Under the pieces are notes generated by a model that was not told the DNA's origin, made no database searches, and was given only the letters and a program-made list of their open reading frames with translations. DNA of 43,573 nucleotides from positions 1 through 43,573 of the forward strand of contig JAKSLN010000008.1 of the NCBI GenBank assembly GCA_024401165.1, written 5' to 3'. The translations under genes were made by a program, and so were the position numbers. How positions within the stretch are numbered: the stretch's first letter is position 1; each line of letters opens with the position of its first letter. The stretch is from Bacteroidaceae bacterium (GTDB lineage Bacteria; Bacteroidota; Bacteroidia; Bacteroidales; Bacteroidaceae). This document shows, piece after piece, positions 2,572 through 43,573 of the stretch.

Positions 2572-5500
2572 AGAAAAGACTATGAAGAATTTGCACAAGA
2601 TATTTCTACTGTTGTTGCTGCTCTTAGGGGGAGTGACAGGTACGACATACGCTCAAACTATCCGACTCGGAGGAGAGATCTTCGGAGGAGGAGAAGGTGA
2701 GCTGAAGGCCGATGGCACAGTGAATGCCTCTGCTGACGTAGGTGGCAACACAAATGTGACCATCTCGGCTGGTAAGTTCGTTGTTGAGCAATACGATGCG
2801 GATGATACTGCAGGCCCAAAGCCGTATTATACAGGACAACTGAAGAACGACCACAATGTTTTTGGCGGCGGCAATTTGGCGTGCGTGGTGACTGGCAATA
2901 CTAACGTGAATATGAATGCCTGCCTCCTTCCGGTAGAGTTCTTTGCTGTTACCCCGGGAAATGACCCACCAACTACGGCTACTAGTATGTATCGCCGTTG
3001 GGGTGAATATGTTGGTCGCATGGAAGGCATGGCTGCCGCTGGCGCACCAGTAGAGAAGGCTGTGCAAGGTTCCGTCTTTGGCGCTGGCTACGGTGTGCAT
3101 ACCAGCGTGTTGGGTACGACGAACGTCAACATCACAATGGGTAGCGAGGAGTTGATTAGCAGTACTGATGATATCTTGAAACGATACGGTTTTGCCAAAC
3201 GAGGTGGCGACCCGACGGGAACTACGCTTGCCTCCAAGTTCGTCATCACGGCTTTTGGCGGTGGTTATGACGGAACGGCCAATAATACGAACGTGCAGAT
3301 TTCTGGTTCGCCATTCCTGCAGAACGTCTTTGGAGGCGGTCTTGGATCGAAGGCTGGTGCGAATGCCAATGGCGGTTGTGCCAGCACCGTGGGAACTGTG
3401 ACTGGTAGTGCTAATGTGACTATCAATGGTGCTACTGTCTATGGCAGTGTGTATGGTGGTGGTGCAGGTATCTTCGGCGAGCAAGTGGTAGATATTCCTG
3501 GTCGTGGTACCGCCAAGATGCCATACTACAAGGCTGCCATGGTGATGAAGGATGCAGAGGTGGAAATCAATGGTGGTACACTCGTCTTCGGCAATGTGTA
3601 TGGTGGTGGTGACATTGCCAACACTGGTTGGTTTGAGGAAGGCTACCGTCCTTCGGTTGAGCATCAGGCATACGAGAACGAGAGCAAGGCGAAGCTTGAC
3701 CTCACCACTCACCTGCAGATGAAGGGTGGCAATGTGATGGGTAATATCTTTGCCGGTGGCAATGGCCGTAAGATGACAGAACTGGAGAAGGCAAACTTCA
3801 TCGGTGCCGTCATTGGTAATACCAGCGTGGTGCTTGGCAAACAGAATGGCAGTACATGGGATGCCGGTACCCGCGTATGGGGTTCGGTCTATGGTGGTGG
3901 TCAGAATGGTAGCGTATATAGCTGCGCTGTGATGGCTGCCAACAATGGCGGTGCGGCACGTACACTTGATGCTGGTTTGCTGGATGGATGCACGAACGTA
4001 GAGTTCAAGCATACGGACATCGGACAGGATATCTTTGGCGGTGGACTTGGCGCTGTGGAAATGGTGGATCATGACCATGATCCTGCAACTCCAGATCAGG
4101 AAGTCATCACCTCTGCCAATATCTCTGGCGGCACGTTTGTGTTCTTCAATCGTGGCAATCTTATCACAAATGTATATTGGGATCCGGTAGATTGTGTATT
4201 CAAGGAGCAGAACTGTGGTGAGCGTTTCCGTGATACAGAGAGCGACATTGCCCATAACCTCTATGGCGGTGGCAATGTGGCTTGTACCATCGGAACTAAG
4301 GTTGACGGACAGCTTGTCGCTAAGACTGGCAACACTACCATCTATATGCTTGGCGCACCAGTGGTAGATGCTGCATTCATGGGATCGCAGTATTATAAGG
4401 ATGCTCTGGCTATCTACGGCAAGCCACACTTCTCAGCCTTCGGTGCTGGTTATGGTAAGAATGCCGTGGTGCTTGGCAATGCTTATAGCGATATCGCGCT
4501 GACGGCCGCAGGATTCCATAGCGTCGTAGGAGGTGGCATGAATGGTCCTGTAGAGGGCGAGTGTATCACACACATCGCATGCGATGCGGAGAAGACGCGT
4601 ATCCACAATGTCTATGGTGGTGGATACTATGCGCCTGTGGGTGGCACACATCTTTATATTACTGAGGGACACATTCTGGAGAACGTCTTCGGTGGTGGCG
4701 TGATGGGTAATGTTGCTCCTACGAATGGTGACATGACGAAGTCTGTTGCCTCTACTATCATCGGATTGAAGAATGATGGTTCAAACTTGAGCAGTTACAT
4801 TGTCCATGGTACAGACGGTACTTCAACCGTTCGCGAATATGCTTACGCTAATCACCAGAACAAGATCATCATCGAAGGCAACGTCTATGGTGGTAACGAC
4901 GTGTCGGGTACAGTGAATGGTATTGCCGAACTCGCCATCTATGGTGGTGAGATGAAGCACGACGTCTATGGCGCTGGCAATGGTGACCACGACGGATACT
5001 ATGAGCCAGGCTATGGAGTGTATGACCGTGGCGACTGGGGAACGGACAACTACTACTATGTGGATCATAGCGCGGATGTCAGTACGGATGGTTCAAGCGT
5101 ACAAGGACCTAAAGGTGATACCTACGTTGGGCGTCCTCAAACCGTGGGTGGCGTGAAGCTTACACTTGCCGGCAATAGCACTACTGACCGTGTAAAGGTG
5201 CTTGGCCAGGTGTTCGGTGGTGGCAACTCTTGTACAATCGGCAAATGGAACCAATCTCTTCTGACAACTAAATATGCAGGCAATCCTCACCTCGTTCGTG
5301 ATGATCCGGATTACTTCCTTGGTGGCGGTAAACTATCTGTCACTTTAGGTTCGCACATCCGCATTGGTCGTACGCATGGTGAATTGGATGCCGCTTCGGC
5401 TCAGGACAAAGCTGATTATCTGCAGAACGTCTTCATCAATGGTCAGAATACAGCAGAGAATGTGTCTGGTCTCTATATGGGATGCTCTGGCCGACATCTG

Positions 5501-8500
5501 GCTACACAGACAACGGACATTGAAGACCATAACTATCATCATTATTATGACCGCGTGACAGCAAGGTACTGGCCTGGTTTTATTGTGTATAAGAATGAAG
5601 ATGGTCATACTAACGAACCGGTAGGACGTGCCGCAGGTCTTGCCACCTTCCGCGCGTACCTTAATAATATATTGATTAAGACCGATGACGTGTCGCTCAA
5701 CATCGCCGACGATGCAGAGGACATCTGGCTTGCCAACTTCGTGGGTGGCGGTTTCCGCGGTTCGATGAAGGCGGCAACCGCTGCGGGTCAGTTCCACTAT
5801 AAACTGAAGCGTGGTGTAACCGTAGGTCATGACGTGATTGGCGGTGCTTATAACACAGACGTGGTGTATCATATCTTCAAGACGACTGATGGACATAACT
5901 ATCCAGTAGTAGATGGACACTATCAGTACTTGACTGAGGTTGGTGACTTGAAGAGTAAAGATGAAGTTGATGATATCAATGACGCTGACTACCATCACCT
6001 TGAGAAAGACCCTCTTACAGGCGATGTTACCGGTATCATCCGCTTCTACTATAATGGAGGTATGTTATCGGAACTCCCCTACGAGACTGATCCAGCATCG
6101 AACACTCGTATCAATCGCATCTTTAATAATTATGTAGCGAAAGGTGGTTCCGATTCTAACAAGGACTTTGCTGGAGAAGACCAAAGCAGCGATATCGCCT
6201 TTAACAAGTACAGAACCGATGCTCTCGTCTATCTTGAACTTGAGAACAAACTCGAGACGGAGTATGTAGATGGTCATGTGCATGGTGGCAACGTCTTTGG
6301 CGGTTGCTTCTCTTCTGGTCGTGTAGAGGGTGATATTTGGACCGACTACCGTTGCTATCAGGAAGGTCAGCAGGCACAGAGTGAGGATTTCAACCTCTCG
6401 GTAACAAACTTCAATAAGGCAAAGAACTTCAACGATAACTTCGCTATGATGCTTTTCGGAGCTGGCTATGGTAGCAACACAACCATCCAGGGTTCTGCAT
6501 ACGTGCGTGTGCTGCATCAGGACCACGTAACACCAGGACGTGCATACGGTTATCCTCGTCTTTACAACATCTTCGGCGGTAGCTATGAGGGTAGGGTAGA
6601 GAAGAACACTAATGTCTATTTCAACCCGGGACTCTATGGCTATGTGGCTGGCGCTATCTATGGTGGTGGTTGTAACGGTTATGTCGGTGGCAAGACCTAT
6701 GTCGAATTGGCTGGTGGCTATGTGGATGAGTGCTATGGTGGTGCTCGTAATGCAAACATCGGTGGCGGTACGTCTGTATGGGCATACGATGGTACAAGCC
6801 GTTGGTGGGGAGAGGATTTCAATAAATCCGACGGTAATCCTGTAGATGAATCAACTGCCGAGAAGGCACCTCTCTTCATCGGTAAGATATACGGTGGTAC
6901 GGATATCTCGGGAAAGATATGCTACAGTGAGGATGGTAGTACTTATACCAAGGAGAATGGTTATCAGCCATTCTTCACCGCCTCTGAGTGGCCAAAGGAT
7001 CTCTACGTGAATGGCGTTGATAATAGTGAGGGCATGATCTATCTTGATTCGTATCTTCAGATTGGTGGTGTGGATCAGAGTAACCGTGGCTTCCCTATCA
7101 TCGGCGAGATATTTGCTGCAGGTAATGGTGAGAAGACGGCTGAGTTCTTCGGCGATGCCTACGATGACTCAAAGCTCCCTCACCAGAACACCGCCTTCAT
7201 GGAGGTGACCGATGGTAATGTGGTCTATGCGTTTGGTGGCGGCAACCGTGCTACGGTGACGAGTCAGAACTATATTCATGTGCGCTCGTATCTGGATGGA
7301 ACGCACACTATCTCTGGACTTGGTGGTCGTATGTACGAGGTCATGAAGAGCCGTGTGCTCAATGTGGCTGTTGACTGCTATGATGAGATTGGTGGTAACC
7401 TGAGTTTGAAAAATGCCAGCATCCAACGTCTCTTTGGTGGCAACAACATCGCCACGATGGACATCCAGCCTAAGTGGATGCTCAAATCAGGACGCATCAA
7501 CAACGTCTATTCGGGTGGTAACATGGGTGATATGACCTACTATAACCCTGATGGTGTGGCTGCAAGAACGGAGAAAAATGGTAACTGGACCTCTGGTATT
7601 GAAACTAATGCTGACGGCACCAATGCCAACTACAATCCCAAGGGACTTTCTATCACCATTGACCAGCCTCAGATTCATATCGTTTCGCTCTTCGGCGGTT
7701 GCCGTATGTCGAATGTCAATCCAACTCCTAAAACTGGTCAGGCGGAGTGGCCAACTGGAACAGAAGGAGAAGACTGCTATGGCGCCACGGTCAACATCAA
7801 GGATGGCTACATAGAGAATGTATATGGAGGTAATGACGTGAGCGGAAGTGTGGCTCACGGAACAAACGTGAACATCTCTGGTGCCGTATCTGGTAATGTG
7901 TATGGCTCAGGCAACGGCTTCTACCTCTATAAATATGATGAGAGAGAGACGCAGGTAACGGAGCATATCAGCGATGAGTATGGCATCTACTATACTGTGC
8001 CAAACCGAGGAGATGACACCAGTACTGGCGACACCCATAAGATTCTTACCATCAATGCTGTGCGCCCATCTGTAGAGAAGGCATTCCTTAACATCGCAGG
8101 TATTTCACCAAGGGATGCACAGGGAACAGTAGGAGACCCTGGTTATAAACCAGCCATTGCAAAGAAGGTGGCATACGTGAAGGGTAACGTATATTGCGGT
8201 GGAAATGCCTCAACGATTATCGGCTCTGGCGAGAATACCTTCACCAAGTTCAAGATCGGTTCATACGTTACGCTGAACGGTGTGTTCATGGGATCGGATG
8301 GTTTGGCATATACACAGAATGACCATATATCGCAGTTCGCAAAGATTAATGGCATTACGGATATGGGTGCAGCGACTTCATTCACTGATCCGGCTTGTGA
8401 TGATGCCAAACACAACCCGATCCTGCTCAATGCCTATATGATGGCGGTGGATATGAAGTCGCAGCCAAAGGACTTCAACCTCAACCTGCCACTCGTTGAG

Positions 8501-9980
8501 GCTCACATCGGTACTTACTGCGGTGGTGGTAACCGTGGTTCGATGCTGGTGGATAAGACGGTGACGCTGCCATTCCATCATGATATTGTCATCTATGATA
8601 AGATCGTAGGTGCGTGTCTGGATGCTACGGTATCGTACAACCAGAACGGTCAGATCATCAAGTCGTATGGCGGCTATACTCGTGCTCTTGATATTGCCCA
8701 CAATGGTACGAATGGCAACACAAAGATGAACCTCACCATCGCCTCGCAGTTTGCTCCGCTGATGATGGACGTTCCTGCTGACAAGGTTTCGACCACGGTC
8801 AACTCCCATGGTGAGACATTCGCTGAGGCAGAGGCTCATGACTTCCTCTATCCTCGAATGAATGGCAATACGTATGCGGAGTCTTCGGCTTACGTCACTG
8901 GTTGTAACATCTATGGCGGCTGCTATCAGTCTGGTGAGGTAGAGGGCGACATCATACTCAACGTGCACACTAATATGCTTCGTTATGTCAATAGTGATAA
9001 GCTTAAGGCAGCAATAGACAACAATCAGGCTTGCTTCAACGTGTATGGCGCTGGCTATGGTCAGGACTCTCACGTTTGGGGTAATGTCAAGATCAACGTG
9101 GAGCGAAATCTCGACACCAGTATCATGGGTACTGTAGGCGGAAGTACGCTGAGTACAGCCCTTGGCGAAAGACTTGGAGGATCTGGAGTTTGGAACATTC
9201 AGCATAGCACAACCGTAGCAGGGAATATGCTTGCTCTTACCAATGCCAACACCTATCCTTCGTTCAACAACATCTTCGGTGGTGGACGTAGCGGTCAGCT
9301 CATCGGTAACTCAGAGATACAGCTGAAGAACGGTCTCGTATTCTCCGATGTGGCAGGTGGTTGCTATGCTTCGGATATGTATGGTTCAACACAGATTGTT
9401 GTTGGTTATCCGGAGTATTATCAATGTAAAGCGAGTGGTGTTTATACTTTGACTCGTGGTGACAAGTGGAATATCGAAACCAAAGCACCACAGTATAAAG
9501 ATCGTGATGGACACCATGTAATTAAGACTTCGGTCAACTATCTGAAGGGAGACCTCGTTCCTGCCAATGTATGGGCTCAGATGAGCAGCGATGGACAAAG
9601 TAACTTCACCAAGATTGAGGCAACTCCTACTTCATGGGATGATGTCCACATCAAGGTAGGTGGCGGCATCTACGGTGGTGGTTACTCTCTGGCCAACAGT
9701 ACCTCTGGTTCTGCTGGCACCATCACTACACATAAGCTCAACTCAGGCAAGACCATTACAGATAATCGCAAACTCGACTTCGATGGACGCCATGGTATTG
9801 ATGTCGCGTCAACTAATGGCTATGGTGGCAACGCCAGCATTATGGTGGGAGATAATACCAATTTGATATCTTCTTTGACGGATGAGGCAAAAGACCATAT
9901 CCGTATCTCGACACTCAACCAGTCGGCAACGAATGTGTTGACGGGCGAGGGAGGTATTTATGGAGATGGTCACCTTACCT
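121..9980 (+). repeat. DNA-level [YF]GGG-coding repeat field
   Basis: Dozens of degenerate copies of a unit containing TATGGTGGTGG / TTTGGCGGTGG followed some 20-40 codons later by the next copy run through both giant genes. The copies are diverged enough that it is not a simple tandem array, but short exact matches are common, so slippage or recombination between copies, and assembly collapse, are possible. The same composition produces long meaningless open frames on the opposite strand. Confidence 0.75.
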
Positions 9981-12900
9981 TCTGCGAAGGTTTCCGTGCT
10001 GCAGACATTATCGGTTATGGTTATGCTGAGGGTACTCCAAAGAATCCGATTGCACTGAACACCTTCCAGCGACTGGATCTTCTTTCTGCAACTGACTGCT
10101 GTTTGAAGATGTACGGTTCGCAGGACTTTGCTACCGACCAGGTAGATGCCACCGTCTATAGTATGACGCGTGTCAGCGAGTTGCGCTTGAACTCGTCGAT
10201 TAGCAAAGATGCGAAGCTTGGTGAGTTGAGCAGTTCTGCAGACCAGTCTCAGCCAAATGCAAGCAGCGATGGCGCTCAATTTGATTCGAAACGACAGCGT
10301 AACTATCTTGCTTTCATGAACAATGTGTTATATCTTGGCTCAATCATCAGTGACGATGAGTTCACGGATAGTTTCCATGGAATAGATGGCACGAAGGGTA
10401 GCAATTCTTATATTGACGAGAAACGTAATTACATTTCTACATACAGCGCTGCTTCAGACAAAGATAACGAGGCTGTCAATCTCGCTTTCAAGAAGCGTAA
10501 TGTCGGTACAGCGCGTAATGCTGTTGGCATTGACAATGGTTATGCACTGCGTATCCAAAACCAGTACTACGACAGCGACAAGAAGGCACAGCGATACTAT
10601 GGTCCAGTGGTTGGTGTGGTAGAAGTCAAGCTGCTCTCGCTCCAACCAGGTGAGGGTGGTGGCTATGTGTATGCCGACAATATTCATGCTGATGAGAATA
10701 ACTTCCTTAATACCTCAGGTAACTTCGTCTTCCCGGGCGTTGTTAATACGGATACCAAAGTCGGAAATCAGTATATCGTCGATGATTGCTTCCTTGATCA
10801 CTTCGGTACGCAGTCTAATATTACGGCTAAAGATGGGGTTCTCGATGAAGCTCACTACTGGTATGTTGAGGGTAACCATTACTATTATAACACCACTCTT
10901 ACCGGTTATACATTCAATGCCCAACAGACGGTTTTCAATCTTGTTGATAATGATCCAAACATTCTGCTCTCTGGTTTGAAGAGTGGTAGTCCACTTAGGG
11001 TGCTGAGTGTGGAGTGGGATGAGACGAACCACTCTGCTGGTTATGGCTGCGTATTACACAATACCACACCAAACAAGATCGAAGACTATCAGTTCGACAT
11101 GATGGTAGATGGCGAGACGACTTGGAAAGATGCTATGACGCGTTATACATATAATTATCCGGAGCCTAGTCCGGAAAAGAAAGTAGCGGAGAAAGACAAC
11201 TTCAATCCTCAGTTCAACATTCGCTTGATAGACAAGGTCGATAATAGTGGTGACGACAACTACTATGGACATCTTGATGAACCTGAGAATGTCATAATCA
11301 AATTGAAGGGTATGAATGGTGGAACAGAATACTTCTATGACATTCGTCTGAAGATTGTCTATCTCGAAGGCCCTTCATATACAGGCGGTGTGAAGATCCT
11401 GAACTGTGCATTGCCTGGCGAGCGTATTGGCTTCACGTCAGAAGGTATCACAATCAAGACACACGAGACGATGCCAGTGACCGCTTACTCTTGGAAATTG
11501 CTTCCATTGAGCAGTAAAACCGACGGCAACTATATTTGGGATACAAATAATGGTACTACGCTCGAGAGGGGCGTCAACTACACCGTTAATCCTGATGGCT
11601 CAGTTGAGGGTTGGATTCCCGCATACTACAACGAGAACGAGTACAACATCTCGTATATCTTTACTGTAGCAGATCATGACTTCCCAGTACTTCCTAACCA
11701 GAATGTTGTAGAAAATCCTAAACAGGAGAACCGCATGGTTGTGGTGCACAACTATCACCGCATGAAGGATATCATATCTCGTGAGCTAGAATCTTCTGTC
11801 ATTGCGGGTGCGCGCGTATATATTGAAGATGTAGCGGATCTCACGGCATTCCAAAATTGGGTCAATAGCGAAAAGACCACGGAGGGTGTTGATTTCATCC
11901 TGCAGAATAATTTGACTTTGCCTGACGGATGGAACTTTAGCGAAAAGTTCAAAGGTACATTCCACGGTGATGGTTATGTGCTTACAGCTCCTTCTGGTGT
12001 AAGTACTATCTTTGGCGATAATCTTGATGGTAGGGTCTATAACCTCGGCCTCATTGGTGGTACAATCACTACAGTTGATGGCAATGCTGCCGATGAGCAT
12101 GGCGTGATTGCTACAGGCAACAGCGTCTTCAACTCTTACGAGTACAAGGCAGATGAACCATACTTCGCCTACGGCACCAATGCCTACGCACTCAGCCATC
12201 ACTTCACTCCAACGACTGATGGCTATGTGGAGAACTACTATGCTAATGGCGACTACCAGTACGCTGCTGTCGGCAAGACCACGGCATTGAGCTTCGATGG
12301 TACAAATCTGCGTACTGGTGCTCCGAACTATGGTAGTACGGATACTCACCACCTCATGTCTCACGATCATGACACCAAGCGATGGAACGAGACGAGCGAG
12401 GTGAACATCCCACTCTATAGTGCTACTGAGAATGCTACATACAATGGTGCTCATGATGCCTACGAGAACGATTACCTCTTCTTCGGACAGCACCTTGACA
12501 AGACCAATGCCGATGCATATCCTGTGCATATCAGCGGTGTTGCCAAAGGCGATGCCGTTGACGCTATGGGCATAAGCGCCAAGGGTGGTAACCGAGTGTA
12601 TAAGGCTACGGCTTACTATCAGGATGCCACTGAGGACAACTTCCTGTATAATAAGGATGCATGGGCATTGCACCCATTGCTCACGGCTATCGACTTCACA
12701 GAGATGGTGGTAGAGGGTGATGGTGCAACGACTATTCCTGCTACATTCAGCGTGGATAGCAACAAGGACTATGATGCTGATGGCACTCCGATTGCAGCAG
12801 GCACTTACACGAATGCCTCAAAGGGGCATGTCACTCAGAACCTGCTCGTCTATAACTCTGGCGAACCAGTCTTTGACAAGCATGATGCTGCCGGTATTGC

Positions 12901-14044
12901 CGAGAAGGATGTTGTCTATCACAACCTCGTGAAGAGCGATGCTACCTTTGCTACCAACTATCTCCACCTCGTAGATAAGCAGGAGTTCTGGTGTCCTATA
13001 GCATTCAATGTCAACACTCGCGCATGGTATGAGCGTTTGCCACATGCTTACCGCAATGTTCAGTCGCTTGGCTATGACAAGGGTTCGGCATGGGAAGGCA
13101 TCGTGCTGCCATTCACCGCGACAAAGGTTACGGCAAGCACCAATGGTGAGATAAGCCACTTCTACGAGACTGATGAACTGAACCATGAGTACTGGTTGCG
13201 CGGATTTACTTGCGTTGATGCGAGTGCTTCGCCTGTGGTAGCGGCAGCATTCATGCAGCCGGCGTCGGGTGCGGAGAATGGTTTCGCTGTTGATGCACAG
13301 GGTACATCTAAGATTCCCAGCTATCTCTATAAGAACACTTATTTTGCCAACATTCCGACTTACGATCGTTCGGAAAACTTCGGTAAGCATTATGATGACG
13401 CCCTTAATGGTGTAACTTTCCAAAACTATATCCCACTTACCGCCGGCGTTCCTTACATCGTGGCTTTCCCTGGCAACGACTTCTATGAGTTCTCTATGGA
13501 GGGTGATGGCAGTTACTCTACCTCTACCCACGATAAGCCGGGCAACGGACAGTGGGCAACCTTCGAGACGGGCGCAACAACAATCCCTGTCACATCAGCG
13601 GCAATGAAGACCACCGTGGGAGACTATGCTCATGTAGGCACCTTCCTCCATGCTGATTGGTCGAGCATCAAAAGTGGTGTTTCGTCATACGGCATCAACG
13701 ATGGTGGTTCGGCATTCGATGATGATGTGAAAACGGCAGTGCCATTCCGTACATATATGGCTACCGCAACTACTCCTGGCCGTGCTCATCGCATCAAGAT
13801 TGCCTATGGTGCGGAACCAGCAGTAGAAGAGGAAGATGACGTTGACGGACCTGCCTTCCAGATTCTCGTGGATGGTATGGACGTGACGGTTGAATCGACC
13901 TATGAACAGAGTGTTCCTGTGACTGTGCACACGGTTGCGGGTCAGTTAGTGCTTCGCCATGAGGCTAAACCGGGTACAACTCACTTCCGTTTGCCCAAGT
14001 CGGGTGTCTACATCATCGGTGGAAAACGTTACTTGGTGCGTTAA
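2582..14044 (+). CDS. Giant secreted glycine-rich repeat protein with T9SS-like C-terminal tail
   Basis: 3820 residues from the ATG at 2582, chosen because a signal peptide follows at once (MKNLHK, then a run of leucines, then TYAQ); the TTG 21 bp upstream in frame only adds polar residues. Residues about 30-2465 carry roughly 40 copies of the [YF]GGG / A-x-V / G-N-T-x-V-x-I repeat shared with the upstream gene, broken by longer insertions. Residues about 2465-3500 are non-repeat beta-rich sequence, with a stretch near 3060-3170 (FHGDGYVLT, VYNLGLIGGTI) resembling GLUG-type surface repeats. From about 3500 (WEGIVLPF) comes a Bacteroidetes surface-protein type C-terminal part. The last 60 residues (VHTVAGQLVLRHEA, then GVYIIGGKRYLVR) resemble a type A T9SS sorting domain. 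Probably exported to the cell surface as a long solenoid. Ligand and role unknown. Confidence 0.88.
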   Translation: MKNLHKIFLLLLLLLGGVTGTTYAQTIRLGGEIFGGGEGELKADGTVNASADVGGNTNVTISAGKFVVEQYDADDTAGPKPYYTGQLKNDHNVFGGGNLACVVTGNTNVNMNACLLPVEFFAVTPGNDPPTTATSMYRRWGEYVGRMEGMAAAGAPVEKAVQGSVFGAGYGVHTSVLGTTNVNITMGSEELISSTDDILKRYGFAKRGGDPTGTTLASKFVITAFGGGYDGTANNTNVQISGSPFLQNVFGGGLGSKAGANANGGCASTVGTVTGSANVTINGATVYGSVYGGGAGIFGEQVVDIPGRGTAKMPYYKAAMVMKDAEVEINGGTLVFGNVYGGGDIANTGWFEEGYRPSVEHQAYENESKAKLDLTTHLQMKGGNVMGNIFAGGNGRKMTELEKANFIGAVIGNTSVVLGKQNGSTWDAGTRVWGSVYGGGQNGSVYSCAVMAANNGGAARTLDAGLLDGCTNVEFKHTDIGQDIFGGGLGAVEMVDHDHDPATPDQEVITSANISGGTFVFFNRGNLITNVYWDPVDCVFKEQNCGERFRDTESDIAHNLYGGGNVACTIGTKVDGQLVAKTGNTTIYMLGAPVVDAAFMGSQYYKDALAIYGKPHFSAFGAGYGKNAVVLGNAYSDIALTAAGFHSVVGGGMNGPVEGECITHIACDAEKTRIHNVYGGGYYAPVGGTHLYITEGHILENVFGGGVMGNVAPTNGDMTKSVASTIIGLKNDGSNLSSYIVHGTDGTSTVREYAYANHQNKIIIEGNVYGGNDVSGTVNGIAELAIYGGEMKHDVYGAGNGDHDGYYEPGYGVYDRGDWGTDNYYYVDHSADVSTDGSSVQGPKGDTYVGRPQTVGGVKLTLAGNSTTDRVKVLGQVFGGGNSCTIGKWNQSLLTTKYAGNPHLVRDDPDYFLGGGKLSVTLGSHIRIGRTHGELDAASAQDKADYLQNVFINGQNTAENVSGLYMGCSGRHLATQTTDIEDHNYHHYYDRVTARYWPGFIVYKNEDGHTNEPVGRAAGLATFRAYLNNILIKTDDVSLNIADDAEDIWLANFVGGGFRGSMKAATAAGQFHYKLKRGVTVGHDVIGGAYNTDVVYHIFKTTDGHNYPVVDGHYQYLTEVGDLKSKDEVDDINDADYHHLEKDPLTGDVTGIIRFYYNGGMLSELPYETDPASNTRINRIFNNYVAKGGSDSNKDFAGEDQSSDIAFNKYRTDALVYLELENKLETEYVDGHVHGGNVFGGCFSSGRVEGDIWTDYRCYQEGQQAQSEDFNLSVTNFNKAKNFNDNFAMMLFGAGYGSNTTIQGSAYVRVLHQDHVTPGRAYGYPRLYNIFGGSYEGRVEKNTNVYFNPGLYGYVAGAIYGGGCNGYVGGKTYVELAGGYVDECYGGARNANIGGGTSVWAYDGTSRWWGEDFNKSDGNPVDESTAEKAPLFIGKIYGGTDISGKICYSEDGSTYTKENGYQPFFTASEWPKDLYVNGVDNSEGMIYLDSYLQIGGVDQSNRGFPIIGEIFAAGNGEKTAEFFGDAYDDSKLPHQNTAFMEVTDGNVVYAFGGGNRATVTSQNYIHVRSYLDGTHTISGLGGRMYEVMKSRVLNVAVDCYDEIGGNLSLKNASIQRLFGGNNIATMDIQPKWMLKSGRINNVYSGGNMGDMTYYNPDGVAARTEKNGNWTSGIETNADGTNANYNPKGLSITIDQPQIHIVSLFGGCRMSNVNPTPKTGQAEWPTGTEGEDCYGATVNIKDGYIENVYGGNDVSGSVAHGTNVNISGAVSGNVYGSGNGFYLYKYDERETQVTEHISDEYGIYYTVPNRGDDTSTGDTHKILTINAVRPSVEKAFLNIAGISPRDAQGTVGDPGYKPAIAKKVAYVKGNVYCGGNASTIIGSGENTFTKFKIGSYVTLNGVFMGSDGLAYTQNDHISQFAKINGITDMGAATSFTDPACDDAKHNPILLNAYMMAVDMKSQPKDFNLNLPLVEAHIGTYCGGGNRGSMLVDKTVTLPFHHDIVIYDKIVGACLDATVSYNQNGQIIKSYGGYTRALDIAHNGTNGNTKMNLTIASQFAPLMMDVPADKVSTTVNSHGETFAEAEAHDFLYPRMNGNTYAESSAYVTGCNIYGGCYQSGEVEGDIILNVHTNMLRYVNSDKLKAAIDNNQACFNVYGAGYGQDSHVWGNVKINVERNLDTSIMGTVGGSTLSTALGERLGGSGVWNIQHSTTVAGNMLALTNANTYPSFNNIFGGGRSGQLIGNSEIQLKNGLVFSDVAGGCYASDMYGSTQIVVGYPEYYQCKASGVYTLTRGDKWNIETKAPQYKDRDGHHVIKTSVNYLKGDLVPANVWAQMSSDGQSNFTKIEATPTSWDDVHIKVGGGIYGGGYSLANSTSGSAGTITTHKLNSGKTITDNRKLDFDGRHGIDVASTNGYGGNASIMVGDNTNLISSLTDEAKDHIRISTLNQSATNVLTGEGGIYGDGHLTFCEGFRAADIIGYGYAEGTPKNPIALNTFQRLDLLSATDCCLKMYGSQDFATDQVDATVYSMTRVSELRLNSSISKDAKLGELSSSADQSQPNASSDGAQFDSKRQRNYLAFMNNVLYLGSIISDDEFTDSFHGIDGTKGSNSYIDEKRNYISTYSAASDKDNEAVNLAFKKRNVGTARNAVGIDNGYALRIQNQYYDSDKKAQRYYGPVVGVVEVKLLSLQPGEGGGYVYADNIHADENNFLNTSGNFVFPGVVNTDTKVGNQYIVDDCFLDHFGTQSNITAKDGVLDEAHYWYVEGNHYYYNTTLTGYTFNAQQTVFNLVDNDPNILLSGLKSGSPLRVLSVEWDETNHSAGYGCVLHNTTPNKIEDYQFDMMVDGETTWKDAMTRYTYNYPEPSPEKKVAEKDNFNPQFNIRLIDKVDNSGDDNYYGHLDEPENVIIKLKGMNGGTEYFYDIRLKIVYLEGPSYTGGVKILNCALPGERIGFTSEGITIKTHETMPVTAYSWKLLPLSSKTDGNYIWDTNNGTTLERGVNYTVNPDGSVEGWIPAYYNENEYNISYIFTVADHDFPVLPNQNVVENPKQENRMVVVHNYHRMKDIISRELESSVIAGARVYIEDVADLTAFQNWVNSEKTTEGVDFILQNNLTLPDGWNFSEKFKGTFHGDGYVLTAPSGVSTIFGDNLDGRVYNLGLIGGTITTVDGNAADEHGVIATGNSVFNSYEYKADEPYFAYGTNAYALSHHFTPTTDGYVENYYANGDYQYAAVGKTTALSFDGTNLRTGAPNYGSTDTHHLMSHDHDTKRWNETSEVNIPLYSATENATYNGAHDAYENDYLFFGQHLDKTNADAYPVHISGVAKGDAVDAMGISAKGGNRVYKATAYYQDATEDNFLYNKDAWALHPLLTAIDFTEMVVEGDGATTIPATFSVDSNKDYDADGTPIAAGTYTNASKGHVTQNLLVYNSGEPVFDKHDAAGIAEKDVVYHNLVKSDATFATNYLHLVDKQEFWCPIAFNVNTRAWYERLPHAYRNVQSLGYDKGSAWEGIVLPFTATKVTASTNGEISHFYETDELNHEYWLRGFTCVDASASPVVAAAFMQPASGAENGFAVDAQGTSKIPSYLYKNTYFANIPTYDRSENFGKHYDDALNGVTFQNYIPLTAGVPYIVAFPGNDFYEFSMEGDGSYSTSTHDKPGNGQWATFETGATTIPVTSAAMKTTVGDYAHVGTFLHADWSSIKSGVSSYGINDGGSAFDDDVKTAVPFRTYMATATTPGRAHRIKIAYGAEPAVEEEDDVDGPAFQILVDGMDVTVESTYEQSVPVTVHTVAGQLVLRHEAKPGTTHFRLPKSGVYIIGGKRYLVR

Positions 14045-36328: not shown

Positions 36329-36829
36329 TTAGGGTTTCAACGCCTTCTCTGGCGCTTGATTTTCCATGAGCAGCGTGTCGTTTGCCTGCGATTCGATGAC
36401 TTGGTCAAAGGCTGTCTCAGGTGCGGCAGGCACTACTGCCGGAGGCAGCGTGACGACGTTCTCGCTTTGGTCTTGGTACATGGCCTGTTGTACGGCCAGA
36501 CTGATGCTCAACACCATAGCCACTGCTGCTGCTGCTTTGTAGAAGGGACGCAGTCTGTAGTCAAATTTCAGTCTCTTTGCTTTGACTGTGTGTACGGACG
36601 TGTCATCGCTCTTTATTTGCTTCAGGATACGCTGGTCAAACTCGTCTGGCAACTTGTCGTTTGCCGTTTCTTGCAGGCACTCGAACACTGTCTTGTAGCG
36701 TTGCAGATGCTCTGGCACTTCCTCTTGCGCAAAGAACTTGCGCAGTATGCTCTCTTCGAGGACCGTTGTCTCGCAGTCCCAGTAGCGTTGCAGCAGTTGC
36801 TCGATGTACTTATAGTCCATATTGCTCAT
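36329..36829 (-). CDS. Single-pass membrane protein, probable anti-sigma factor
   Basis: 166 residues. N-terminal cytoplasmic part of about 95 residues (YIEQLLQRYWDCETTVLEE-type helix often found in Bacteroidetes anti-sigma proteins), one membrane helix at about 97-117, and a short Pro/Ala-rich periplasmic tail. It overlaps the sigma gene by 20 bp, or 11 bp if the ATG at 36820 (MDYKYI) is used, which implies coupled translation. No FecR sensor domain is seen, so the signal is not the usual TonB-receptor type. Role inferred from position and topology. Confidence 0.75.
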   Translation of the reverse strand: MSNMDYKYIEQLLQRYWDCETTVLEESILRKFFAQEEVPEHLQRYKTVFECLQETANDKLPDEFDQRILKQIKSDDTSVHTVKAKRLKFDYRLRPFYKAAAAVAMVLSISLAVQQAMYQDQSENVVTLPPAVVPAAPETAFDQVIESQANDTLLMENQAPEKALKP

Positions 36830-37322
36830 ATTTAGCGATTTGCTCCCGCAGTTTTGCTCGTGCCCGATGCAGGTATACCTTCACTTGACTCTCGTTCAAC
36901 CTCAGGATTTCACCAATCTCACTATATGCCTTGCCTTCGTTGTCACGCAGTTGAATGATGCTGCGCTGTACTTCTGGCAAACCATCGATGAAGCGTCGAA
37001 GTGCGTCGATGCGCATCTTGGCGTCCAGTTCGTCGAGGGGCGTGGTGAAAGTCGTTGACGAGTCCATCTCCTCGTTCAGCCTCAGGTTGCTCTTCCGGGC
37101 TGCGCCGTTTCTGTCCAGGGCCAGGTTGCGGCAGATAGTCATGCAGAACGACTCTAATGACTGAATCTTGTCCCACTCTTCGCGACGCTCCCACATCTTG
37201 AGCAAGGTGTCTTGGACGATGTCCTCCGCTTCTTCCCTGTCCAGTGTGATTCGCAAGGCCAACCGGAACAACTTGTCCTTGAAGGGGAGTATTTCTTCGC
37301 GAAATATATGTTCTTTCATCAC
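36810..37322 (-). CDS. ECF-type RNA polymerase sigma factor (sigma-70 family)
   Basis: 170 residues. Region 2 at residues about 15-60 (FRLALRITLDREEAEDIVQD then LLKMW) and region 4 at about 115-160 (LPEVQRSIIQLRDNEGKAYSEI, then NESQVKVYLHRARAKLRE), with no regions 1 or 3: an ECF sigma. The first of two adjacent ATGs is taken as start. Downstream overlap with a membrane protein suggests a sigma/anti-sigma pair. No own TAnnTTTG promoter was found; it may be read from nadB, 79 bp upstream, through a strong hairpin in between. Confidence 0.93.
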   Translation of the reverse strand: MMKEHIFREEILPFKDKLFRLALRITLDREEAEDIVQDTLLKMWERREEWDKIQSLESFCMTICRNLALDRNGAARKSNLRLNEEMDSSTTFTTPLDELDAKMRIDALRRFIDGLPEVQRSIIQLRDNEGKAYSEIGEILRLNESQVKVYLHRARAKLREQIAKYEQYGL

Positions 37323-39140: not shown

Positions 39141-39268
39141 GAACTATGAACTATTTATCGTATCTTTGCACTGTGCACTATGAATTGCGAATTATGCACT
39201 ATGACTCCGAAGTTTGATGAACTTTAGCGAATAACTATGAACTATGCACTATGAATTATGAACTATTT
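39141..39268 (+). repeat. Short dispersed repeats in the dacB-like leader
   Basis: TGCACTATGAATT occurs exactly at 39174-39186 and 39245-39257, with a 10-base partial copy at 39195-39204; ATGAACTATTT occurs at 39146-39156 and again at 39258-39268, where it contains the start codon. The unit is roughly (A/G)NACTATGAA. The copies span the promoter and the whole leader. Confidence 0.75.
39161..39168 (+). promoter_or_regulatory. -7 box of the dacB-like gene (TATCTTTG)
   Basis: TATCTTTG, 89 bases before the ATG, which leaves a leader of about 80 bases made mostly of the short repeats. Confidence 0.55.
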
Positions 39269-40340
39269 GTCAAAAATTAAGTCCCTCCCCGCCATACTCC
39301 TCCTGTTCGCCACCCTTGGATGTGGAACCACCCGAAAAATACAGGAACACGTCGTTCCCTTCCTCGACACCCTGGTCAGCACCACTATCGAGCAGATTGA
39401 CGCTTCCCCCCTCTCCATCCTCCATCAGCCAACCGTTGTCCACCTTCCCTATCACAACAATACGGCCGCTGCCGCCACCCCCTCCACCTGGCAGCAGCAG
39501 CTCCAGCAGCGCCTCGATACGCTCTGCAACCAACCCCTTTTCTCCTACACCCGCCTTGCCCTGTGCGTCTACGACCTTACCGAGGACGCCATGCTCTACT
39601 CCGTCAACGCAGAGCAGCGCATGCGTCCCGCCAGCAACATGAAACTTGTCACCGCCATTACCGCCCTCGACCTCCTGGGTCCCGATCACGTCTACACACC
39701 CGTCGTCAAGTCACCCGGATGGGGATGGTGCTGGGACGACGAGGAGACCGGCATCACCGACTTCGGTTTTAAGGGCAAACGAAAGGCTCCCGACATGCTC
39801 TATGCCGAGAGTAAGCCCCGCCGCCTCGGTGACATCCTCATTCCTATGATGAAGCAAAGCGACAACATGCTGGCAGAAAGCATGTTCTGGCAACTACCCG
39901 ACACCGCCGTCGCCGAACCCACCCGCAAGGACTGTGCCGCCCCCGTGCAGGCGCTCATCCAGCGCCTTGGCCTCGAACCCTCCCTCTACACCATAGCAGA
40001 TGGAAGCGGTGTCTCCCTCTACAACTACCTCTCCGCCCAGCTCCTCCTTCGTCTTCTGCAGCACGCCTACCACACGTCACCCATCTATGCCGCCCTCTAT
40101 CCCTCGCTGCCTATTGCCGGTGTGGACGGCACGCTCCGTAACCGTATGAAGGACACCCCCGCACAAGGCAACGTCCATGCCAAGACCGGCACCGTGACCG
40201 GCGTCTCCACACTCTCCGGCTATTGCACCCATCCCTCCGGCCATCAGCTCTGCTTCAGCATCATCAACCAGGGCATCCCCTCGTCCAGCCTTGGCCGCAA
40301 CTTTCAAGACCAGGTCTGCGAGACGCTTACCACACGTTAA
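39258..40340 (+). CDS. dacB: PBP4-type D-alanyl-D-alanine carboxypeptidase/endopeptidase, short lipoprotein form
   Basis: 360 residues. Lipoprotein signal (LLLFATLGC, Cys22 as the lipid site). The S13 motifs are present: S126-N-M-K129, S201-D-N203 (KQSDNMLAE), the DGSG box at 248-251 and K309-T-G311. Only 75 residues separate SxxK from SxN, against about 240 in E. coli PBP4, so the two extra domains inserted there are nearly absent. It should trim or cut peptide cross-links in the periplasm. Upstream in-frame ATGs hit a stop, which fixes the start. The coding strand is strikingly rich in C and poor in G compared with neighbours. Confidence 0.87.
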   Translation: MNYLSKIKSLPAILLLFATLGCGTTRKIQEHVVPFLDTLVSTTIEQIDASPLSILHQPTVVHLPYHNNTAAAATPSTWQQQLQQRLDTLCNQPLFSYTRLALCVYDLTEDAMLYSVNAEQRMRPASNMKLVTAITALDLLGPDHVYTPVVKSPGWGWCWDDEETGITDFGFKGKRKAPDMLYAESKPRRLGDILIPMMKQSDNMLAESMFWQLPDTAVAEPTRKDCAAPVQALIQRLGLEPSLYTIADGSGVSLYNYLSAQLLLRLLQHAYHTSPIYAALYPSLPIAGVDGTLRNRMKDTPAQGNVHAKTGTVTGVSTLSGYCTHPSGHQLCFSIINQGIPSSSLGRNFQDQVCETLTTR

Positions 40341-40348
40341 GTAGTTTT

Positions 40349-41023
40349 TCAAGAGCAAAACTTTCCGTGGCAAAGACAGTCGCAATACGTTATTGAGGTT
40401 TCTTCTGACGAACTTACTGTTCGCATGTGTTCCACTTGAGTATGTCCAACAATTTGATGTACTCCTAGCAGCGAGTCATGGCACGTTTCATCAAGGTCTG
40501 CCCAGAAAATGCTGCCACATTCGCAATTGCCGCCTCTGCCATATCCTACCAAAAACATTGCCTTCATTTGTTCTTCTGTTGGATTGTTCAACTGGTCTGC
40601 AATACTCGGAGCACCTTCATTGGTATTGCCCTTGAAATATTTATCCCACCAAAGATTGCTCACTCCAGCATGAGTGAAGAGGGTATTACCATCCTGATAA
40701 GCAAACTGGAAAAGCTTACGCTCATCCTTAAAGAGAGCCTGCAAGAGTCTTGCAATGTCTTGGTTGTATCTTGTGCTAACAGGGAAGTCTTCATAGATAT
40801 AATGCATATCGTGGTTCCCTAGTAAGAGAATTATGTCATCCTTACGCTTTTGTTTCAACTCAATGATGTCAAGCATATTGGACAAAAGGTCGAAGTTGCT
40901 GATTTGGACGTATGGGTCGCAATAGTCACCAAGAAATACTATTTTGTCCGTAGGATGCTCCTCGACAATCTTTTTCCAGTTCTTGAGTCCGTGAATGTCG
41001 CCAATGGCAATCGTCTTCTTCAT
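40349..41023 (-). CDS. PPP-type metallophosphatase (calcineurin-like)
   Basis: 224 residues, no signal peptide. All metal-binding motifs are present: G8-D-I-H-G12, G32-D-Y-C-D36, G69-N-H-D72, H118 and G193-H-T195. The pattern GDIHG/GDxxD/GNHD resembles bacterial serine/threonine phosphatases and diadenosine-tetraphosphatase-like enzymes; the substrate could be a phosphoprotein or a nucleotide. It is 15 bp downstream of the ADP-ribosylglycohydrolase gene and last in the same-strand group, 8 bp from the convergent dacB end. Confidence 0.9.
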   Translation of the reverse strand: MKKTIAIGDIHGLKNWKKIVEEHPTDKIVFLGDYCDPYVQISNFDLLSNMLDIIELKQKRKDDIILLLGNHDMHYIYEDFPVSTRYNQDIARLLQALFKDERKLFQFAYQDGNTLFTHAGVSNLWWDKYFKGNTNEGAPSIADQLNNPTEEQMKAMFLVGYGRGGNCECGSIFWADLDETCHDSLLGVHQIVGHTQVEHMRTVSSSEETSITYCDCLCHGKFCS

Positions 41024-41038
41024 ATTTCGAATCGAGAA

Positions 41039-41824
41039 TTAATGATTGTACTTCTTTTCAAAATTCTCCAAGATGGTAAGCAAAGGAGCATCAAGCTTCT
41101 TATGTACAATGTCTCGTACATAGTCTGGAATGCCATAATAAGCCTCTGCTATTGATCCTGTTATAGCTGCTGCAGTGTCAGTGTCCTTGTTTGTGAGCAT
41201 TGAATACTGCAATGCCTGCTCGAAACTGTCGCTATAGAGGAAGCTGATGATAGCCTCCGGCACGGTGTCCTGACATGTGGCACCGAACTTATACTCGGCA
41301 TTGTAGATGTCCTCGAACGTACGGGTCATGTCGTAGTAATGATGATGGATGTACTGGCGTATCTCCTCCTTAGGATGTCTGGTGCGCGCCAAGAAGATGC
41401 ATGCCGTGACAGCCTCAGTGCCCTTGATGCCCTCGGGATGATCGTGTGTGGGCAGAGCACTCTCTTTGGCCAGACGCAGTGCATCTTCCAGCGTGTCTGC
41501 TGCCCAAGCGCACGCACAGCAACGCATAGGACCTCCATTGCCAAACGAGTTGTAAGGCTTTGCGTCGTCGCCCTCTTCGAGCCAATTGACGAACATCGTT
41601 CCGTAGCCACCCATCGGACGGTGGTAGATTGTGGCATACAGTCGCAAAGCCTTGCTTATGTCGCTGTTGTTCATAAGTGCATCTGCCACTGCCAGTGTGA
41701 GTATGGTGTCATCGGTAAATGTACTCTCTGGCTCGAGTAGTTGTTCGTGTGTCTCTTCACCGGTGATGCCGATGTTCTCGTGTGTTGAACCCAGAATGTC
41801 TCCGTAAATAGCTCCGTATAGCAT
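41039..41824 (-). CDS. ADP-ribosylglycohydrolase family protein (DraG/ARH type)
   Basis: 261 residues, cytoplasmic. Starts MLYGAIYGDILGS as in the family. Metal-binding motifs: T37-D-D39 (STFTDDTIL), and D214-T-D216 in NKDTDTAAAITGSIAEA; GNGGPMR and HDHPEGIKG are the other conserved loops. The family removes ADP-ribose from protein side chains, from other acceptors or from free derivatives, using two magnesium ions. The NKDTDT and GNGGPMR forms differ slightly from the common GGDTDT and GN(G/S)xxMR forms but keep the metal ligands. It sits between a metallopeptidase-like gene (67 bp) and a metallophosphatase (15 bp). Confidence 0.93.
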   Translation of the reverse strand: MLYGAIYGDILGSTHENIGITGEETHEQLLEPESTFTDDTILTLAVADALMNNSDISKALRLYATIYHRPMGGYGTMFVNWLEEGDDAKPYNSFGNGGPMRCCACAWAADTLEDALRLAKESALPTHDHPEGIKGTEAVTACIFLARTRHPKEEIRQYIHHHYYDMTRTFEDIYNAEYKFGATCQDTVPEAIISFLYSDSFEQALQYSMLTNKDTDTAAAITGSIAEAYYGIPDYVRDIVHKKLDAPLLTILENFEKKYNH

Positions 41825-41891: not shown

Positions 41892-42806
41892 CTACGCATA
41901 ATGCATAGTCTGGCGAATGGCATCAATGATCTCTGGATTCGGAATGTCCCTCAGCGTACCCAGAACTGCAATGACGAAGTTCTCTGCCAGTGCCTCTTCG
42001 GGGTTGGTCGTGTATCCAGTATTCCTTCCTATGTGTTCGTAGTATTCGTCACATCCTGCCGTGGGGTTTATGAAGGCCAGTTCGCCGCTCTCGTCGCGGA
42101 TGAACTCCAAGTTCTCGTCGATGGGGAGGAAGAAGGGACGGAATCTTTTATGGAAGTGACCTTGGCCATACATGTAAGAGAGGTCTGTCATTACAACAAC
42201 ATTCTGATAGCCTCTTCCTACCTTGAATTTTGCATGGCAAAGCTGATTGCAGACGTCGGGGTTGCTGACGAAGTGCAGCGTCCTTGTTTCTGGGTAGCAG
42301 AAGAACTTATCCTCAACGGTGAAACCAATGATGCTGTACACGGCTTTCTTATACTCCTGACAGTTGCGGGTCAAGACGTGGAACAGCTCGTGAACGAGAA
42401 GATGCTCCAGAAAACCGTCGTTGTTGAAAGCATTCTGATTGAGGTAAATGGTGTTGCCGCGAGTGTAGCCGTAGGCATCAATTTCCTCCTTTCCTGTAGT
42501 CTTGACAAGGTTAATCTGCTCTATGAGCGGTAATACCATACCTCTGCGTTTCAGTTCGCTGTCGATCTCGCAGAGCAGTAGCGACAGCTGAGCCTCCTCC
42601 TTCTCTGTGAAGTCCAGGATGGCCTCCTCGCAGAGTTTCAGGTAATCATCCAGCGTTGCGTCTCTCTTGTCGCAACGAAGGTTGAGGTCCTGCTGCGTCA
42701 AGTTGTCGATGTAAGAATCTCGCTGGGTGATGAGCTTCCTACCCTCCTCCTTCTTGGTGAATGTAAAGTTGATGTCCATCAGGTCGCATTTATTCCAATT
42801 GCTCAT
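41892..42806 (-). CDS. HExxH metallopeptidase-like protein, family not recognised
   Basis: 304 residues, no signal peptide or membrane segment. H139-E-L-F-H143 is preceded by hydrophobic residues (LEHLLVHELFHVL) as in zinc peptidases, and a NPEEALAENF segment about 130 residues later offers a third ligand (E271 or E275). Both features, in this order, suggest a zinc metallopeptidase or a relative; catalysis is not shown. The N-terminal 100 residues are helical and charged. Its partners are a NADAR gene 93 bp upstream and an ARH gene 67 bp downstream, so its target may be one of their substrates. Confidence 0.75.
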   Translation of the reverse strand: MSNWNKCDLMDINFTFTKKEEGRKLITQRDSYIDNLTQQDLNLRCDKRDATLDDYLKLCEEAILDFTEKEEAQLSLLLCEIDSELKRRGMVLPLIEQINLVKTTGKEEIDAYGYTRGNTIYLNQNAFNNDGFLEHLLVHELFHVLTRNCQEYKKAVYSIIGFTVEDKFFCYPETRTLHFVSNPDVCNQLCHAKFKVGRGYQNVVVMTDLSYMYGQGHFHKRFRPFFLPIDENLEFIRDESGELAFINPTAGCDEYYEHIGRNTGYTTNPEEALAENFVIAVLGTLRDIPNPEIIDAIRQTMHYA

Positions 42807-42863
42807 AAGTAGATAATGTTTATATATTTATGGATGTTAATTGTTTCAAACTTGTTTTGTTGG

Positions 42864-42885
42864 CCTGCCTCTATATTCAGGCAGG
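42864..42885. other. Perfect 7-bp inverted repeat between NADAR and metallopeptidase genes
   Basis: CCTGCCT (42864-42870) and AGGCAGG (42879-42885) with an 8-base loop. There is no T run on either side, so it is probably an mRNA processing or stability element rather than a terminator, if it has a role at all. Confidence 0.4.
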
Positions 42886-42899
42886 AGGGAGATGGGGAT

Positions 42900-43573
42900 C
42901 TACTCCTCGGAGAAGGTGATCTTCTGGCCGAGGATGTAGATGTTGGAGCGGTTCAAGAGTTCAATGTTGATGTGGGGCTTCGTGCCTTCTACGAGGCAAC
43001 GGCGGCTAATGGTAAGGATCTTGCCTACTGCGTTTCCCCCTTTGATGATGCCTTGTGGAGCCTGTTCTGAACAGGTTGAAGGGTCGGGGTAGGCTGCCCA
43101 AATGGGGTCGTTCTTGACAAGTTCAATGATGACTCTGTCTTGTGGGATGGAGAGGAGATGCTTGCGGAAGGCTTCGCTGTGAAGGCACTTCTGCCAAATG
43201 CACCAAAGCATCCAATCAAGGCGGAAGGTGGGGAAGTCGGGACGGATGTGCTTCTTGTGCTTTGTTTTCTTGTAACGCTTTGCGGCATAGCCACTTGTGG
43301 CTGTAAGAACATCCTTTTGGATGTCAAGGTGTTCGGGAGTGTTGTTGCTCCACTCACCTAAGAGGTAGAGATATTCTGTGGACTTCCAGGTGTGTCCGAG
43401 AACGGTGTGAGGGAAGCCTGAGGCCATGTTGCCTAAGTGTAGTTCGATGCCCTCACAAGTGTCGTGAGGCTTTGAGTAGTGAATGATGTGAAGTTGGGTG
43501 GGGTCGAGTGACTCCTGACGGTTGAGTGTTGACTCTGTGATGGTGAGGTTGTAAACCTCTTCGGGACTAAGGT
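42900..43573 (-). CDS. NADAR-domain protein (YbiA-like), 5' end outside window
   Basis: The frame stays open to the window edge, so 223 residues of an N-terminally incomplete protein are seen; the ATG at 43427 is internal because NADAR-like sequence (HIIHYSKPHD, EGIELHLGNMASGFPHT) precedes it. Family features follow in order: W-K-S-T-E-Y (the conserved Glu of the WxSxEHxxQ box), AKRYKK, RLDWMLWCIWQKC, LVKNDPIWA and GIIKGGNAVGKILTISRR (the GxNxLGxxLxxxR box). NADAR enzymes cleave N-glycosidic bonds of ADP-ribose or riboflavin-precursor type; some reverse ADP-ribosylation of guanine. First visible gene of the NADAR / peptidase / ARH / phosphatase group; its promoter must be outside. Confidence 0.85.
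   Translation of the reverse strand, partial: LSPEEVYNLTITESTLNRQESLDPTQLHIIHYSKPHDTCEGIELHLGNMASGFPHTVLGHTWKSTEYLYLLGEWSNNTPEHLDIQKDVLTATSGYAAKRYKKTKHKKHIRPDFPTFRLDWMLWCIWQKCLHSEAFRKHLLSIPQDRVIIELVKNDPIWAAYPDPSTCSEQAPQGIIKGGNAVGKILTISRRCLVEGTKPHINIELLNRSNIYILGQKITFSEE

Follow-up and report, generated by a model that had tools for sequence, protein, structure and literature searches.

Gene systems centered on the enzyme termed ARG, which we read as the ARH/DraG family of ADP-ribosylglycohydrolases, are predicted to undo ADP-ribosylation of foreign origin (PMC9503650, section 3.8). Slightly more than 55% of these systems include a phosphatase, with calcineurin-like enzymes among them, over 42% include a Nudix or WYL regulator, and they are often accompanied by peptide-binding chaperones and sometimes by a macro or NADAR protein, with no coupled transferase or sirtuin; the lineages named include actinobacteria, planctomycetes, and proteobacteria (PMC9503650). 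With that work, the combination of NADAR, ARH, and phosphatase is already largely in print. According to the consulted part of PMC11833690, tested NADARs reverse ADP-ribosylation of the guanosine base in RNA, and phosphate ends are the targets of enzymes of the ARH and macrodomain types. NADAR-domain defense proteins are named in the consulted part of PMC13092281 (DS32 does not appear in that part of the main text), and in Prevotella intermedia an ARH gene lies beside hmuY with a phosphoesterase elsewhere (PMC10434189, consulted in part). Searches of the openly licensed PMC literature did not point to the exact four-gene set described below.

The window, by which we mean the whole analyzed stretch of 43,573 nucleotides, is an entire contig (G000:C132) of a draft genome of 2.54 Mb in 153 contigs with a completeness of 80.7%. 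The genome appears to belong to Bacteroidales, the only close NADAR relative with a name being from a Bacteroidaceae MAG. Its right end carries four minus-strand genes in the ORF list, given here with a stem-loop between two of them and with the convergent flank:

42900..43571, minus strand: NADAR-fold protein, 223 codons, 5' side open at the contig end, recognized by profile matches

42864..42885, minus strand: stem-loop between the NADAR and peptidase genes (7 pairs, loop of 8), lacking a T run

41892..42806, minus strand: HExxH zincin-like protein, 304 aa, recognized by an eCIS_core match and an alignment with five relatives

41039..41824, minus strand: ARH/DraG-type ADP-ribosylglycohydrolase, 261 aa (PF03747, E 5.3e-33)

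40349..41023, minus strand: calcineurin-like phosphoesterase, 224 aa (PF00149, E 6.6e-10)

39258..40340, plus strand: PBP4/DacB-like D-Ala-D-Ala carboxypeptidase, convergent flank (PF02113, E 5.1e-58; PBP4 model 144.4 bits, cut-off 107.8)

The initial annotation had described the four genes as lying on one strand with gaps of 93 bp (NADAR-peptidase), 67 bp (peptidase-ARH), and 15 bp (ARH-phosphatase), and the ORF coordinates agree. The shortest of these gaps suggests that ARH and phosphatase likely belong to one transcription unit. Whether the NADAR and peptidase genes share that unit is uncertain because of the stem-loop in the 93-bp gap, even though it has no T run; the fold of 42807-42899 reaches -12.8 kcal/mol (z -2.15), and 7 of 200 shuffles were equally good. 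The role of NADAR as head of the group is unproven, since its frame runs off the contig end and nothing upstream is readable; the protein itself is almost entirely visible, as a paralog with 54% identity begins merely a few residues further upstream. The GC contents of the NADAR (0.516), peptidase (0.494), and ARH (0.499) genes are close to the mean of the other genes in the window (0.519), and that of the phosphatase gene, 0.428, falls below the other three.

Set beside the ARG systems, the locus shares an ARH core, a phosphatase immediately downstream (15 bp), and NADAR as an extra component (PMC9503650). It differs in that neither a Nudix or WYL regulator nor a chaperone is present in the visible part of the window, and the HExxH protein and the altered-site NADAR are peculiar to it. 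A Pfam scan found no ADP-ribosyltransferase or sirtuin among the four genes, the upstream side being off the contig. A check for a cognate transferase, made for DarT only (PF14487), gave no match in the source genome at its 80.7% completeness.

We read the locus, with a probability of about 0.5, as an accessory cassette at a variable site of the chromosome, standing beside an older nadB-dacB arrangement and having an ARH-phosphatase pair for ADP-ribose clean-up as its core. All enzymatic steps are inferred, as are transcription as one unit and a function in countering foreign ADP-ribosylation. The ARH enzyme would cleave ADP-ribose from modified macromolecules or from small ADP-ribosyl conjugates. 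The phosphoesterase would remove phosphate from what is released or from the end that has been cleaned, in line with the proposal for ARG-centered systems of other bacteria. The NADAR-fold protein, in which the phosphate-binding Lys is replaced by Glu, would most likely act on a different N-glycoside or bind without efficient ADP-ribose hydrolysis, and the zincin is probably a loosely linked neighbor.

The two core proteins look intact, with matches to PF03747 and PF00149 that exceed the Pfam cut-offs. In a 35-row alignment, ARH residues G8, D9, E16, D38, D39, H127, D214, D216, and T217 are among those common to at least 90% of the rows. The best solved relative of the ARH protein is the ARH3-like structure 6g1p (E 1.9e-14); with ARH3/DraG hydrolases it shares the family and the conserved acidic residues, although the sequence similarity is remote. 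In the phosphatase, D9, H11, and G12, then G32, D33, Y34, and D36, and further G69, N70, and H71, H118, A119, and G120, and G193 and H194 are common to at least 85% of the rows in a 32-row alignment; a search of PDB gave no match at E 0.1. The kept ARH residues and the ARH3-type structural relatives support the proposed core.

The initial annotation had suggested that the four genes form one module, which might be expected to stay together across Bacteroidales. Among 101 genomes (the source genome and 100 relatives), counts that include the source genome were 2 for NADAR, 2 for the peptidase, 18 for ARH, and 8 for the phosphatase; among 393 genomes of the order, again with the source included, they were 3 for NADAR (one a broken fragment), 5 for the peptidase, and 27 for the phosphatase, ARH having been counted in the 101 genomes rather than order-wide. 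Locus maps were drawn with a longest-ORF picker that may hide genes (PBP4 in L127 and nadB in L123), and a frame-free check of the four proteins against 209 loci was added. The exact set occurs in no other fetched neighborhood by this check, and NADAR or the peptidase accompanies another of the four nowhere in the 209 stretches except at the window's own loci. Wherever two or more of the four occur together outside the window, they are always ARH and phosphatase (G081, L101, L168, L169, L173, L185, and the phage stretch L202). The family searches, the locus maps, and the frame-free check together led us to reject a conserved operon of all four genes, and a joint function of the four is not supported by their conservation.

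At the dacB site itself, none of the four proteins was matched at E 1e-3 in 15 same-genus dacB stretches, which argues that the cassette is accessory there; nadB is visible in 11 of the 15. The window's own nadB, named from sequence reading rather than from a family scan, lies ~1.3 kb from the cassette. Among ARH stretches from other genomes of the order (17 stretches that cover 19 of the 21 other ARH places), NADAR was present in 0 and the phosphatase in 1, G081, where a one-strand array joins ARH to a zinc alcohol dehydrogenase gene and to the nearest relative of the phosphatase (49% identity). Conversely, phosphatase stretches from relatives, with 10 of the weakest places (E > 1e-6) left out, contained a distant ARH (24%) in 1 of 20 besides G081. 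That phosphatase relatives rarely accompany ARH and that none of these 17 ARH stretches holds NADAR weakens the cassette reading, as does the low phosphatase GC.

It is possible, though on balance doubtful, that there is no module at all and that four accessory genes with separate jobs have gathered at a variable site, their common ADP-ribose theme being partly coincidental. The lack of a second copy of the set among the 209 stretches, the patchiness of the families (3, 5, and 27 of 393 genomes for NADAR, peptidase, and phosphatase and 18 of 101 for ARH), the deviating GC of the phosphatase, and the stem-loop between NADAR and peptidase all fit this view; the pairing of ARH with a window-type phosphatase in G081 and in phage LR756501, together with the clustering of NADAR and ARH in three genera of another order, speaks against it. 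The same pairings support the ARH-phosphatase core that we prefer.

In the wider phylum the grouping has a basis beyond chance. PF08719 was matched in 33 of 340 phylum genomes at 37 places, of which 36 are covered by 35 fetched NADAR stretches. Within ~7 kb, 13 of the 35 contain ARH, 10 contain a phosphatase by family profile, and 8 contain both; all of the positive stretches are among the 20 from genera g210, g212, and g213 (L167-L186), which belong to the same class and another order that we would guess to be Flavobacteriales. The remaining 15 of the 35 have neither ARH nor phosphatase, which counts against the cassette reading, and neither is present in 5 of the 20 from the cluster genera. 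In 11 genomes of these three genera, chosen with some bias after the cluster maps had been viewed, 17 of 19 ARH places lie at most ~9 kb from NADAR and 2 do not; one of the 11 is without any ARH place. The module proposal therefore stands in part: NADAR, ARH, and a calcineurin-type phosphatase recur together in Bacteroidota, and the exact set of the window looks local.

The g210, g212, and g213 clusters resemble the window in that several hold NADAR, ARH, and a calcineurin-like phosphoesterase in one locus, but they are larger and include varying selections of NAMPT, KptA, macro, PARG, and NrtR. The Pfam-checked cluster in L173 encodes NAMPT, ARH, Metallophos, a 2OG-Fe(II) oxygenase, KptA, and NADAR, and further an adenylosuccinate-synthetase-like protein, a second ARH, a PRPP-synthetase-like protein, and NrtR. 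Other clusters of L167-L186 add PARG, macro, DUF4291, and a nucleoside-deoxyribosyltransferase-like protein, and cluster content differs among species of one genus. The macro, KptA, NAMPT, Nudix, and PRTase-CE tags on our maps follow motif patterns that we take to mark these families, with Pfam checks for selected proteins only. The NADAR-ARH clusters of this other order support the proposed core; the low identity of the large-cluster ARH (~21 to 26%) and phosphatase (~27 to 36%) to the window's proteins weakens the cassette reading.

Further support for the core comes from the window's own order, in which an NrtR-type Nudix-wHTH gene lies near ARH in at least 4 of the 17 ARH stretches, the four candidates that were scanned. 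It adjoins ARH in three same-genus stretches and is two genes away in G063, where the gene between them is, we presume from its motif, vWA-like. In two stretches from relatives of the window's genus (L034:4316-6211 and L043:4596-7004), ARH is fused to a HIRAN domain beside an NrtR-type Nudix regulator. These regulators were seen elsewhere; the absence of a Nudix/WYL regulator and of a chaperone from the visible part of the window weakens the cassette reading.

Phage records matched ARH in 8 cases and the phosphatase in 20, and two 735-kb records matched both. A window-type phosphatase was present in one of the six phage ARH stretches viewed (two of them by annotation only), a proportion that again weakens the cassette reading. 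That one is in the huge phage LR756501 (L202), where ARH, an intervening PRPP-synthetase-like gene, and the phosphatase lie on one strand within ~8 kb. In another huge phage, LR756500 (L209), ARH lies near NAPRTase, NUDIX, and a marginal phosphoesterase (26.5 bits, cut-off 27). Scans of viral contigs with NADAR and ARH found no relatives, and NADAR had one weak match in phages and one in plasmids.

The gene company in LR756500 and in the other-order clusters, in which ARH is joined to NAMPT or NAPRTase, NUDIX, and phosphoesterase-like genes, would also suit NAD salvage or repair, with the cassette recycling ADP-ribose or damaged NAD and standing close to nadB for functional reasons. We regard this as unlikely, since the nadB-dacB adjacency persists in relatives without the cassette, as seen in the dacB stretches above, and the convergent dacB gene sits between nadB and the cassette.

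The NADAR protein is a divergent member of its family. It scored 29.5 bits against PF08719, under the Pfam cut-off of 35.1, and 72.9 bits against the NCBIfam model NF053876 (NADAR family anti-phage protein, DS32_2), under the cut-off of 240, and the single sequence gave no match in PDB at E 1. A profile built from this protein and 13 other NADARs reaches the E. coli YbiA structure 2b3w (E 1.5e-40) and 8bau (E 4.2e-26), on which we base its family membership. In an active-site alignment of 40 rows (37 distinct), the ADP-ribose-site residues are kept, with E66 in 39 of 40 rows (one gap) and E150, D155, and W158 in all 40. Position 73, in contrast, is Glu in the window protein, its paralog, and a third relative (all three members of the clade) and Lys or Arg in the 34 other distinct rows.

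Glu73 stands seven positions from the first Glu and on that spacing corresponds to the Lys site (K50 of the P. nicotianae enzyme and K95 of the E. coli C7 enzyme) that is essential for efficient guanine-ADP-ribose hydrolysis and at which Arg is tolerated in vitro, according to the consulted part of PMC11543638. A second alignment (A1) again set the Glu against the Lys or Arg of the nearer NADAR rows and placed the Lys of the large-cluster NADARs where the window row has a two-column gap; whichever alignment is used, no Lys or Arg lies within 13 residues after Glu66. The window NADAR, its paralog, and the third relative group together as one clade with 100/100 support; its stem is long, and its position in the tree may suffer from long branches. 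With the NADAR of the DarT1-NADAR system (PMC11543638, consulted in part), the window protein shares the fold and the Glu, Asp, and Trp equivalents of the ADP-ribose site; it differs in having Glu (YbiA type) rather than Asp on the last strand, in addition to the Glu at the Lys site. The NADARs of the g210, g212, and g213 clusters form a distant clade that keeps the Lys.

The initial annotation had counted two enzymes able to remove ADP-ribose. The kept residues bear this out for ARH; for the NADAR protein we hold the claim back because of Glu73, and judging from the alignments its substrate has probably changed. This Lys-to-Glu change, shared by the window NADAR and two relatives, is, as far as sequence comparison goes, the new element of the locus, and it would make the Glu-type clade a clear case, open to testing, in which the presence of a NADAR gene need not imply that ADP-ribose is removed.

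The other two members of the clade differ in condition. The paralog (G000:C46:2876-3502; L029:2873-3520) is a second Glu-type NADAR of the same genome, 54% identical to the first, on a contig that bears SprA, with an upstream gene of 316 aa without significant Pfam match; a phage or plasmid origin of this copy was considered and rejected on account of SprA and the chromosomal look of the contig. The third (L004:8001-8576) comes from a Bacteroidaceae MAG; its frame is interrupted by a stop codon, and the gene may be decaying.

A toxin-antitoxin or phage-defense operon, with an ADP-ribosyltransferase or PRTase-CE partner of NADAR just past the contig end, we consider quite unlikely. It draws on the DS32_2 and PRTase-CE-linked NADARs, which supply the window's best-scoring NCBIfam model and its nearest tree branch, a branch in which a PRTase-CE gene lies directly upstream of NADAR in L047, L057, and L194 (Pfam). 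The upstream gene in L196 and L197 is, we take it from its motif, PRTase-CE as well. These NADARs carry Lys or Arg where the window clade has Glu, however, and the window score is far under the NF053876 cut-off. The gene upstream of the paralog is not PRTase-CE, a phage row (L058) has merely a 145-aa gene upstream, and DarT was not found in the 80.7%-complete source genome. PADLOC gave weak hits only on the window.

The HExxH protein is linked to the group only weakly. It scored 23.3 bits against eCIS_core, just above the cut-off of 22 and the sole match over a cut-off, with otherwise only short zincin matches in the Pfam scan; searches found no match in PDB at E 5 and none in plasmids. The window protein contains HELFH and PEEALAENF, HExxH being present in all six aligned rows and a PEE.[LM]A[DE][NH]F stretch, which may be the third zinc ligand region, in the four closest. 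Four of its five relatives start with an apparent export signal, judged by eye, and the window protein does not, so that it looks like a cytosolic offshoot of a mostly exported family. In the fetched stretches, the relatives are located apart from the NADAR, ARH, and phosphatase families, consistent with the loosely linked neighbor of our preferred reading. That the Glu-type NADAR clade instead recognizes a different ribosyl adduct, perhaps non-phosphorylated or positively charged, which together with ARH, phosphatase, and the cytosolic zincin it would remove as an undescribed adduct while the carrier protein is degraded, seems very improbable.

Several further observations concern the surroundings. 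The 205-kb plasmid of Prevotella sp. E2-28 (L205) carries two ARH genes beside an opposite-strand group of PP2C, vWA, kinase, and TerY-C genes. At the other end of the window, 1-2571 and 2561-14044 are adjacent, very long repeat-rich frames with many FGGG/YGGG-like motifs, the second encoding 3827 aa with a signal-like start. Beside nadB lie a gene that appears by eye to be sigma-factor-like (36810-37322) and its likely partner (36329-36829); L122 and L124 contain the sigma-like gene at 66% identity.
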